In this document: piece after piece, positions 48,901-54,900 of the stretch | Layout: each line of letters opens with the position of its first letter | Numbering within the stretch: position 1 is the first letter of the stretch | Origin: Amyelois transitella | Lineage: Eukaryota; Arthropoda; Insecta; Lepidoptera; Pyralidae | NCBI RefSeq assembly: GCF_032362555.1 | Contig: NC_083512.1 | Location: 8,792,001 to 8,856,000 of the forward strand | Direction of reading: 5' to 3' | Length of the DNA stretch: 64,000 nt | Made by a program: the position numbers and the translations under genes | The notes under the pieces: generated by a model | The model's input: the letters and a program-made list of their open reading frames with translations, nothing else | Told to the model about the DNA's origin: nothing | The model's database searches: none

Positions 48901-51900
48901 TCAATGTGGTTTGGTTTTTGAGTTCCATTTCATGGTGGCAGCAGTGGGATGCTTGGTGTATGGCTACGCTCTATTTTGTAATGGCTCCCAGCTCTCGTAA
49001 AAATTTCGAGACCAAAACTGATCTGAAAGTCCTACCACAATTTAGCTGAAAAAACTGATTTTATATCCTACTACTATTATAAAGGCGAAAGTTTGTATGG
49101 ATGTTTGTTACTCTTTCACGCAAAAACTACTGAACCGATTACCATGAAATTTGGTATGTAGGTAGCTGAAGACCCAGAATAACACATAGGCTACTTTTTA
49201 TCCCAGAGTTCCCGCGGGATTGATAGGGTTTCCATGCGGACGAAGTCGCGGGCGGCCTCTAGTAGCTACATAAATACGTGCAACTATAGCAAGTGCCTTA
49301 TTGGATAATTTAATGTTAAACATAATAAGCACTGAAAATATTCTTTATCTTTTCCAGGCGACATGAGTCTATCGGAAGCCGTGTCAAACATATCTAGTCC
49401 GGACTACCAAGACCAAGACGACATGTTCGAAACTGGCCGTGAATGCCCCAGAATGGAGCTCTCCGACCCATCAGACTCAGATTCCACCATCTTAGTATCC
49501 GAACCATGCCACAAACGAGCCAAATCCAACTCCACATACTCCAACGAACACGGCAGTGACGTCACACTCAACGGAGATAACGACTATAGGATAGTAATAC
49601 AGGTGAAGGGACCGGATAAACAGAATGCGAATATAGAGAATGTAAATAATAATAATAATTGTACACAGAACGGAAAGGAGAATGGACACAATTCACCGGA
49701 GAATCAAGGGTACCAGGTGAGGGGCGCGATATAGAATGTTGCAATGCTTCGTGTGATTTGTGTGCTTGTGTCTCGGAATAGTTTAAGTTGTCTCCAAAAA
49801 GCCTCAAATATATCTAGATTGATATCTCCTAGATTGTTGTTCTCTGAAATTTGATACGCAGATAAATATATATGATGCTGCCCACTCCGTGCTGAGTTCC
49901 ACAACGCAGTATGATTGCTTGTCCATAGCTTGTTCGAAGTGCGAGAAATTTTACATGTGGGAGATGTGATTAGCACTCGCCCATTTTAATTTTCAGCCGT
50001 GCAGTCTACATCTGCGATTTGTTTACATGGACTCTGTAGAAAAGGTCTGTAACTAGACTAGAAAAATAGGCCGAAATACAGGTTACGCAACAAAAAAATC
50101 TTATAAATTCTACTATTTCGAAATCATTTCGTTGATTTTGACCTTTTTAGAAAAGTTCACTTATTGCTTTTAAAAAAAACATCTTTGGTCTGGTTCTGTA
50201 TAGTATGAGTTCCAAAGTTCCTTCCGGAACGAAAATTATGATTACATTTACACATTGGTTTCTGTAATCGACATTTTAATTTCTAATTATAAATTAGAAA
50301 ATCCGTTATTGTTATTGATGCAATTCAATTCATGTGAAACCCATTTCTCATAGTTAATTAGCCTTATTGCAATGTGTTTAATCTGAATACGTTTTCAGGA
50401 GCTGGGTAGCGGGTCAGACGGTGGTTCGGACGAAGGTTCCGACGGGGATTCCCTACATTCGTTCCACTACAGCCCTAAAGCCGTGGACATACCGTCAGCT
50501 GAGCGGCTCGCTAAGAGGCTGTACCACCTTGATGGGTTCAAGAAATCCGATGTTTCGAGACATCTTAGTAAAAAGTAGGTTATTTTTTACATATTTTTAA
50601 GTAAGGTAATGTTTAGTAAGTTCTAACCCAGGTTGTGACAATATATCTTATCATACTTTGATAGCACGAAACATTTTCTGCATTGAAACAATAATATACG
50701 GGAAAATTTCACATTTTATTGTACTGTAAAAGAGGTTCTGAAACTTATTACATTATTTTCCAGCAACGAATTTTCTCGCGCCGTGGCGGAAGAGTATGTG
50801 CGACACTTCTCGTTCGCGGGCGCGACATTAGACGCCGCGCTGCGAGCCTTCTTGGCACGGTTCGCGCTCAGCGGCGAGACGCAGGAGAGAGAAAGAGTTC
50901 TAGTGCATTTTAGCAGGCGATATCTGGAGTGTAACCCCAATTCGTTTAACTCACAAGGTAAGTTTGTAGTCATCTTTATTTTTTGTATTATATCGTCTGT
51001 AACAGTACGGTGATATAGTCAGTATTAAGACGCTTATATTCACGAAGAACGAAAATTAATGACTTATTCTTTTCAGATCATGAAAATGTTACACATACAG
51101 TGTAGTGTTATGAAAATGTTTTTGATATTTTTTAAACACCTGACATTTCTAGTTTATGCCAGCTAAATGAAACCAACCATTCGCAGACGCCGTCCACACG
51201 CTAACTTGCGCACTAATGCTTCTCAACACGGATTTGCACGGCTGCGGCGGCGCCTTCCGGCGGATGTCGTGCGCGGAGTTCATTGACAACCTCGCGGAAC
51301 TCAACGACGGCGAGAACTTCCCCCGCGACACGCTCAAGCAGCTCTACCACGCCATACGCACGCAGCCGCTGCAGTGGGCGCTGTGAGTATACTGTAGTGT
51401 GTGACACAGTCCACCCCGGGACAACCTCGCGGAACTCAACGACGGCGAGAACTTCCCCCGCGACACGCTCAAGCAGCTCTACCACGCCATACGCACGCAG
51501 CCGCTGCAGTGGGCGCTGTGAGTATACTGTAGTGTGTGACACAGTCCACCCCGGGACAACCTCGCGGAACTCAACGACGGCGAGAACTTCCCCCGCGACA
51601 CGCTCAAGCAGCTCTACCACGCCATACGCACGCAGCCGCTGCAGTGGGCGCTGTGAGTATACTGTAGTGTGTGACACAGTCCACCCCGGGACAACCTCGC
51701 GGAACTCAACGACGGCGAGAACTTCCCCCGCGACACGCTCAAGCAGCTCTACCACGCCATACGCACGCAGCCGCTGCAGTGGGCGCTGTGAGTATACTGT
51801 AGTGTGTGACACAGTCCACCCCGGGACAACCTCGCGGAACTCAACGACGGCGAGAACTTCCCCCGCGACACGCTCAAGCAGCTCTACCACGCCATACGCA

Positions 51901-54900
51901 CGCAGCCGCTGCAGTGGGCGCTGTGAGTATACTGTAGTGTGTGACACAGTCCACCCCGGGACAACCTCGCGGAACTCAACGACGGCGAGAACTTCCCCCG
52001 CGACACGCTCAAGCAGCTCTACCACGCCATACGCACGCAGCCGCTGCAGTGGGCGCTGTGAGTATACTGTAGTGTGTGACACAGTCCACCCCGGGACAAC
52101 CTCGCGGAACTCAACGACGGCGAGAACTTCCCCCGCGACACGCTCAAGCAGCTCTACCACGCCATACGCACGCAGCCGCTGCAGTGGGCGCTGTGAGTAT
52201 ACTGTAGTGTGTGACACAGTCCACCCCGGGACAACCTCGCGGAACTCAACGACGGCGAGAACTTCCCCCGCGACACGCTCAAGCAGCTCTACCACGCCAT
52301 ACGCACGCAGCCGCTGCAGTGGGCGCTGTGAGTATACTGTAGTGTGAGACACAGTCCACCCCGGGACAACCTCGCGGAACTCAACGACGGCGAGAACTTC
52401 CCCCGCGACACGCTCAAGCAGCTCTACCACGCCTATTCCTAATGAGGAGTCTTAAGTGTCAAATAAATAATAACTCCCAATTGCTGATAGCAACATGGTT
52501 CAAAAAGTTATAAAATTAATTATCATTGATACAATTTCAGAGACTCAGAATCCGGCGGCGGCGAATCCGCTGCGGCGACCGTTACGAACTCTAACAACCG
52601 TTCCACCAACCCGTTCTTAGACGTGCCCGACCAGAGTCGCGCCGTGGAGTACAAGAAGGGCTACGTCATGAGGAAGTGCTGCGTCGACGCTAACGGCAAA
52701 AAGAGTGAGTCACATTGTAGCTATAGCCTTTAAGATATAACCTGATCTCTGACACAGCAAAATGGAACGCTAACTGATATGTAGGTGCGAAAAACAGACC
52801 ATAAAATGGATTAATTTCAGATCTATCACAGATGTTTAAGGATTTTAACCTCAATTTGTTATCAATAATTCTGCAAACAGGTTTGGAAAGTTGTTACAGT
52901 AAGATTCGTCTGAATCCTTTTTGGAAATAGTACCCCATTAAGTGTCTTCAGTGAAATGACATCAATTAAAAGCCTGACTGACGTCGGGGTTGATAAAGGC
53001 ACTATGTTCTCGCTTTATGCCTCTACCAGCCCGCCTTTCTAGACACCAACAAGGTCTTGTCTAAAGAGCTTGATTTATACTAAAAGCTAAGAGCCGTTAA
53101 TCATTACTATATAGCTTTTATGTTTGTTACAGCTCCATTTATGTTTGTTACAGCTCCATTTATGTTTGTTACAGCTCCATTTGGTCGGCGTGGCTGGAAG
53201 ATGTTCTACTGCACGCTGCGGGACCTCGTATTATATCTACACAAGGACGAGCACGGCTTCCGACGCAGCCAGATGTCAGACAACCTACATAATGCCATCA
53301 GGTGAATCTATCCGTTCGCAAATCTATGCTAAAGTCAACAGCTCACTAACCTGTAAATTCACCTATATTACCACGTCATAGAGTTCGACGCAGGGTAACT
53401 TGATATTCTGTTGATTGTACTATGATTCCATGCGATGGAATAGCTACGCTAGATGTAAACTATCGGTGTTAGGGCTAGCGGAAGCTATAACATCGCAATT
53501 TCCTACCCTGTCCCCGTAGCAAGTCACGCGGGACGTTGTTCTTATCATACGTAAAACTATCGCTGTCCCGTTTCACGTCATAATAAAAGCGAAAAAGGTA
53601 TAGTCTTTCCCGCGATAAAAACGCCGTCGCGCGTGCAATGTTGTAAGAGGGCTAGAAACCTATAGATATTTTCTTGTGTAAAAATCCTAAACACCGTCCT
53701 GGTTTATTGACTGTTGCCTGAGGGACAACTCAGCTGAAACAAATGCCAGTGGCCATATTTGGTCGAATATTAAATTAAATATTGTTTTTTCTTCTTTAGA
53801 ATACACCATGCTTTAGCTACGAAAGCGACGGATTACACTAAAAAGCAGCACGTGTTTCGATTGCAGACTGCGGACCAAGCTGAATACTTATTTCAGACGA
53901 GGTATGTTTGTCCTCATTTGTATTATACATACATACAAATAGTCATGTCTATTACCCTCGCAGGGTAGAGCCAACAGTCTCGAAAATACTCAAAGGGCCA
54001 CATTCAGCTGTATGGCTTAAAGATTCAAATAGTGACAGATTGCTAGTAGCCCATCGCCTAAAAGAAATCCCAAGTTCATAAGCCTGTCCCTAAATTTCAT
54101 GTTTTGCTTTTCTTTTCACATAGTTTTTCTTATAAAAGCTAGCGTTATTTTTACGTAGGTACACACCGGGCCAACGAATAGGTTTCTCTAGCCTTTGTTG
54201 GTTCTGTTTCGACGTTTTGGCGAATGTCTAAGTCTGCATTTCAAAGCCGTAGAACGTGCATACCAATGTGCGTTGGCCTTCCCCTTATTAACGGACGTTT
54301 ACAATTAAAGACAAAAAGAGATAGGAAAGAGTAAGGGATTCTATCCCTTTGTTATATTGTCAACGATCATGAATTTGCCCCCTAGCGTGGTCGCGGTTTC
54401 AGCCAATAAGAAAAAAATATTAATTTTTTGTCAGTGATTCGAAAGAGCTGTGTTCGTGGGTGGAGACGATCAACTTCGTGTGCGCGGCGTACTCGGCGCC
54501 CCCGCTGGCGGGCGCGGTGGGGTCGCAGCGCAAGTTCCAGCGCCCGCTGCTGCCCTGCGCCCACACCAAGCTCTCTATGGTATTGTGCTATTCTAATTTT
54601 GAACTTGATGAGGTAAACTTTTTTCTTTGAAGCACCGAACCGTCGAATTTGCTTGGTGGTAATGTATATAAGACAGCTATATGTTTATGTCAGTATATCA
54701 TAGCATACTGCATTATTAGAACACTGGTGAAGTCCTAGTGGCACGATGTCGTTGATCACGACAAAAAAAAATTACACTGGCATCGCATTAGTCATTTTAA
54801 TTTAACAATCAAATAACCGCCGCTTTGTGTGTAGAAACAACTTTTAGTTTTATTATGAACAGTTATTATAATAAGAAATACTACTCTGTCAAGAAAGTAG

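Follow-up and report, generated by a model that had tools for sequence, protein, structure and literature searches.

The last Sec7-coding exon of a gene taken as insect-type Efa6/PSD runs into a tandem array of 135-bp units that presents eight splice donors of the same sequence. The gene lies in a stretch of 64,000 nucleotides of Amyelois transitella DNA (contig NC_083512.1, positions 8,792,001 to 8,856,000), hereafter the window, whose own coordinates are used throughout. We read the array, with a probability of about 0.62, as a young exon-intron-boundary minisatellite generated by tandem duplication, with donor 1 productive and the other donors silent or feeding nonsense-mediated mRNA decay (NMD). 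An exact triplication of a 3′ splice site is found in the next intron of the same gene.

Tandem Repeats Finder placed the array at 51285-52433, with a period of 135, 8.5 copies and 99% matches. The array begins within the last Sec7-coding exon. Unit-by-unit comparison resolved it into eight full units and a partial ninth, arranged head to tail:

51285..52364, plus strand: eight complete 135-bp units, each with the donor GCT/GTGAGT, the slash marking the exon end (Tandem Repeats Finder, unit-by-unit comparison)
52347..52347, plus strand: single substitution among the units (unit 8, T to A; unit-by-unit comparison)
52365..52433, plus strand: truncated ninth unit, 69 bp, without a donor (unit-by-unit comparison)

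Each full unit consists of 98 bases derived from the exon and 37 derived from the intron. The donor is present in 8/8 full units and sets exon ends at 51382+135n (n=0-7). Units 1-7 are identical, unit 8 differs by one change at unit position 118, and the ninth unit is identical as far as it is present. At an offset of 135 the sequence matches itself exactly over a run of 927 bases, and the array is therefore not due to chance. As in minisatellites of the human IFI6 type, a tandem repeat runs across an exon end and brings one donor with every full unit (8/8). An earlier note on this DNA had claimed seven and a half extra copies past the exon end and eight equal donors, and both counts were borne out. 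It had set the array at 51285..52432; the start is correct, while the end falls at 52433, one base later. Its claim of an identical donor context largely holds, except that unit 1 has unique exon upstream and that unit 8 has the substitution and unique intron downstream. Its description of the donors as strong was generous: the GTGAGT hexamer is there, but it follows a T instead of a G at the end of the exon, and U1 duplex energy places the array donor 5th among the 15 of the gene.

A search of the assembly (327 Mb, 33 contigs) found the 135-bp unit at the array only (9/9 matches), and the 3′ flank of the array, the intron remnant, was found a single time in the genome. A dispersed repeat was rejected on these grounds, and a hidden paralogue is, in view also of the PH_9 matches given below, improbable. 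Open frames of 376 aa (plus strand) and 412 aa (minus strand) cross the array; they are uninformative, as the period of 135 is divisible by 3 and any frame open through one unit therefore remains open, and a protein-coding array was rejected as well. A search of IMG/VR returned one weak relative (52% over 26 residues), which was of no use.

When donor 1 is joined to the next exon at 52541, the reading frame stays open. Donor 1 is the only one of the eight to keep the frame, which supports the reading given above. With each of the extra donors (7/7) the protein ends with ...PLQWAL followed by TGA, before the PH domain is reached; the earlier note had rightly predicted both the immediate stop and the removal of the PH domain. 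The features concerned are the following:

51187..51382, plus strand: exon ending the Sec7 domain, up to donor 1 (open spliced frame; Pfam Sec7, PF01369)
51384..51386, plus strand: in-frame TGA met when donor 1 is skipped (spliced-frame translation)
51383..52540, plus strand: intron with donor 1, 1158 nt (213 nt with donor 8; gene model)
52541..52704, plus strand: next exon, linker and start of the PH domain (model, domain match)

The 1158-nt intron is the second longest of the 15 modelled. The distance from the TGA to the new junction is 131, 266, 401, 536, 671, 806 and 941 nt for donors 2-8. NMD is expected for a stop at such distances upstream of a junction, and it is the likely fate of transcripts from donors 2-8. 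Any protein made from them would stop after Sec7, without PH. Mammalian EFA6R without its PH domain is reported to be cytosolic (PMC4246094; this and the other papers below are cited from excerpts).

The model of the gene is:

46793..56899, plus strand: modelled Efa6/PSD gene, 16 exons, 848 open codons and a stop (spliced frame; 5′ end incomplete)

The exon that ends the Sec7 domain, exon 14 in the earlier note, is the 10th of 16 in this model, as counted from its incomplete 5′ end. With 848 open codons and GT-AG introns in 15/15 cases, the gene appears constrained and must yield a product. In a 756-aa version of the modelled protein, Pfam searches found Sec7 (PF01369, 144.6 bits) and then PH_9 (PF15410, 171.8 bits), the domain order of an Efa6/PSD Arf6 exchange factor. 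Sequence relatives in the PDB (43 distinct) include Sec7 proteins (cytohesins, IQSEC1) and PH proteins (beta-spectrin). The assignment of the gene to Efa6/PSD is based on these domain matches and PDB relatives. A stretch that may correspond to the C-terminal coiled coil of Efa6/PSD factors is also visible in the modelled protein. There are five PH_9 matches above the cut-off in the genome, and the two strongest are this Efa6. The three loci elsewhere (C30, C14 and C6) are 50% (40 residues), 25% (76) and 28% (71) identical to it by tblastn, and are therefore other PH proteins, not a second Efa6. Next to these three loci the only trace of Sec7 was a chance match of 12 residues, and PH_9 matches and tblastn revealed no second Efa6 in the 327-Mb assembly. 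Two further repeats or insertions were observed in the gene. A 12-bp repeat with 4.7 copies (46814-46869) falls in coding sequence of the first modelled exon, where it encodes Ser-Asn repeats. A Mariner-type transposase open reading frame (54792-56120, minus strand; Transposase_1, HTH_48) lies within a later intron, and no inverted repeats of at least 16 bp were found around it in 54800-56260.

The acceptor of the intron that follows the array-bearing one is also repeated:

53117-53179, plus strand: 3′ splice site in three exact tandem copies, unit of 21 bp TTTATGTTTGTTACAGCTCCA (Tandem Repeats Finder, sequence comparison)
53175..53301, plus strand: PH-domain exon from the presumed original acceptor (PH_9 scores)

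The 21-bp unit contains the pyrimidine tract and the AG and extends five bases into the exon. Exon starts from the three acceptors fall at 53133, 53154 and 53175, all of them (3/3) in frame and stop-free, and they add 14, 7 and 0 residues, respectively, early in the PH domain as repeats of MFVTAPF. The PH_9 score was 175 bits without an insert, 163.8 with seven added residues and 161.1 with 14. Since it is highest without an insert, 53175 was taken as the original acceptor. TTT is present at both ends of the presumed ancestral segment and would fit slippage on microhomology. The first AG tends to be favoured when the acceptor is reached by scanning from a branch point upstream.

In the history that we favour, a single duplication would have placed 98 bp from the exon and 37 bp from the intron in tandem. 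The array would then have grown to 8.5 copies through slippage or unequal exchange, with trimming of its 3′ end. Splicing from donor 1 to 52541 would yield productive mRNA, with the array removed as intron. Leakage to donors 2-8 would add 135-945 nt with the immediate TGA, leading to NMD or to a Sec7-only protein, and the array would be mostly tolerated noise, possibly lowering output. The acceptor triplet may have arisen likewise, and the PH domain may gain 7 or 14 residues from it. Near-perfect units with one substitution agree with the recent origin proposed in the earlier note. At the rate of 2.9e-9 mutations per site per generation given for Heliconius (quoted in PMC10048334), one substitution in 1149 bp corresponds to ~3e5 generations (upper value 1.7e6), a rough estimate because exchange between units resets it. 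Gene conversion and tandem expansion fit the identical units alike and cannot be told apart.

Recent tandem duplication is common in this genome, and some duplications will fall on splice sites. Three exact tandem duplications with a period of 15-500 were found in the window, and 2/3 span Efa6 splice sites. Twenty 10-kb stretches of the genome contained five, one of them an AT run; without it there are four in 200 kb, two within one stretch, with at most three copies each. One of the stretches (L017), from the same contig as the window, has exact arrays at 4621-4964 and 5033-5547, with two copies of a 171-bp unit and three of a 173-bp unit. A random 135-bp segment drawn from the window spans one of the 30 modelled sites with a probability of 0.060, and one drawn from the gene with a probability of 0.38; for a random 21-bp segment the two values are 0.0098 and 0.0625; the window-wide values are lower bounds, because sites of this gene alone were counted. 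What stands out here is the copy number and the pairing of the arrays.

Several observations weigh against this account. The presence of two splice-site arrays in one gene, with a joint within-gene probability of ~0.02, is somewhat beyond chance; the value is notable, not strong, because the arrays were seen before the calculation. The ancestral intron was not recovered: no exact match of at least 8 bases was found between the unit and the remaining intron, which leaves the 3′ truncation unexplained. The eight donors are identical in sequence and almost equal in predicted accessibility, which leaves position as the candidate determinant of their choice. Over six bases, donors 1-7 have a predicted accessibility of 0.0043-0.0044 and donor 8 one of 0.0011; the predicted nine-base values, calculated in a wider window, are 0.0002 for donor 1, 0.0000 for donors 2-7 and 0.0001 for donor 8. 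These predictions lean to donor 1 over donor 8 and are too small to explain the choice. By the nine-base value just one of the 15 donors of the gene is less accessible than donor 1 (150/100 setting). Masking of donors by an RNA hairpin was considered and rejected as an explanation of donor choice, since shuffled sequences fold just as well as the region of donor 1 (z -0.03) and donors 1-8 are nearly alike. SRSF1 is reported to favour intron-proximal donors and hnRNP A1 intron-distal ones (PMC5585400). Donor 8, which gives back a short 213-nt intron, could win. Finally, we infer the productive role of donor 1 from the reading frame, and the sole ground for favouring it is that the rest of the gene is intact.

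Dominance of donors 2-8 would make the sequenced chromosome a loss-of-function haplotype for the PH-containing protein. Use of the intron-proximal donor would restore an intron of 213 nt, near the presumed original length of ~144 nt (1158-1014). We nevertheless find this very doubtful: the downstream exons are fully open, although this argument is weak, as a recent loss would leave no trace yet. The earlier note had also allowed for an assembly error, in which case the true copy number would be smaller, one or a few units. The near-perfect identity of the units would suit such an artefact, which is however quite improbable in a chromosome-scale assembly in which the array and its 3′ flank were each found once, unit 8 has a substitution of its own and further tandem arrays in the vicinity are resolved. 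Another point against an artefact is that arrays of this type are usually collapsed in assemblies of short reads.

The arrays could also be functional. Competing donors might act as a splicing rheostat that sends a set share of transcripts to NMD, so that copy number tunes Efa6, while the acceptors diversify the PH domain. Eight identical donors, the same stop for 7/7 extra ones and three in-frame acceptors nearby would fit, and in human IFI6 two downstream repeat units of a minisatellite are reported to act as donors, giving three mRNAs (PMC4526556). The high identity of the units, however, points to youth, not selection, and recent duplications in tandem occur frequently in this genome; we consider tuning of this kind unlikely. 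A joint action of both arrays, with donor count setting the share of productive Efa6 mRNA and acceptor count setting a PH insert of 0, 7 or 14 residues, appears improbable. Highly unlikely, in our judgement, is an intron gain under way, in which the donor of one unit would be joined to a cryptic AG of a later unit to give in-frame unit exons. With the AG at unit position 125, a cassette of 108 nt (36 codons) would remain, stop-free and in the exon's own frame, and new introns have been described as arising by tandem duplication (PMC4974935; in Drosophila, PMC2891723), among them gained introns comprising tandem repeats in fission yeast (PMC3629103). Yet the frame match is a weak coincidence: of the 8 AGs in the unit, 6 give out-of-frame cassettes and one more an in-frame stop. 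The pyrimidine fraction before AG-125 (0.47) is low, not unmatched, and within the range of the gene (0.47 at 2/15 acceptors, 0.41 at 1/15), but the tract is better in 12/15 exon acceptors. An intron within one unit would be only 27 nt long, probably too short, and splicing would therefore need to skip units. The duplicated segment, with its donor and in-frame AG, could serve as raw material for the gain of an intron through tandem duplication, but does not show that such gain has occurred.

The kind of array is known from IFI6. The units there are much shorter than 135 bp. Like the IFI6 minisatellite, the Efa6 array offers several donors, here seen in the sequence alone; unlike IFI6, where the alternative mRNAs encode isoforms, a stop follows with every extra donor, the unit length is 135 bp and the next intron contains an acceptor array. 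The reference list of PMC2572611 contains a 1995 title (NAR 23:1854) on a minisatellite providing multiple donors. The array also shares with the reported cases of intron gain, those of Drosophila and fission yeast included, a local duplication holding splice signals, but those make a new intron, whereas here an existing donor is multiplied. Competition between a productive and a frame-disrupting donor is described for the adjacent 5′ sites of DOK7 intron 4 (PMC5585400), two unlike sites 11 nt apart, compared to eight identical ones 135 nt apart in Efa6. In Drosophila, NMD has been proposed to shelter new introns with weak sites (PMC2809761); by analogy, such sheltering might also account for tolerance of the donor array. 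Among the open-licence titles and abstract starts listed, none dealt with a donor array of this type, whether in Efa6 or in other genes of arthropods, which does not show its absence from print. What is new is the 135-bp poison-donor design together with the neighbouring acceptor array. The interpretation in the earlier note was thus correct in part: it lacked the triplicated acceptor at 53117-53179, the in-frame 108-nt remainder, the likely NMD and the IFI6 precedent.

Elsewhere in the window, a transposase-like open frame of 691 codons (12803-14878, plus strand) has a hAT-type dimerisation domain and DUF4371, a cysteine-rich open frame of 840 codons (6845-9367, minus strand) has no Pfam match, and a 56-bp unit is repeated at 29141-29310 (3.0 copies, 99% alike).

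Neutral leakage is the most likely reading, ahead of any function of the arrays. The duplication is young and probably mostly harmless, and could still yield a broken or altered protein. Tests of the effect of position on 5′ splice site choice have mostly been made on engineered duplicates. Eight identical donors with 135-nt spacing, differing almost solely in position, are a natural test of this choice, and the three exact acceptors next door are the same for 3′ choice. The products are distinguishable by read length or junction, and the stop after donors 2-8 makes the cost measurable. Minisatellite copy number is expected to vary between individuals. If donor 1 alone is used, Efa6 would be an example of a gene surviving such a mutation; if other donors are used as well, the number of units would act as a heritable dial on Efa6.

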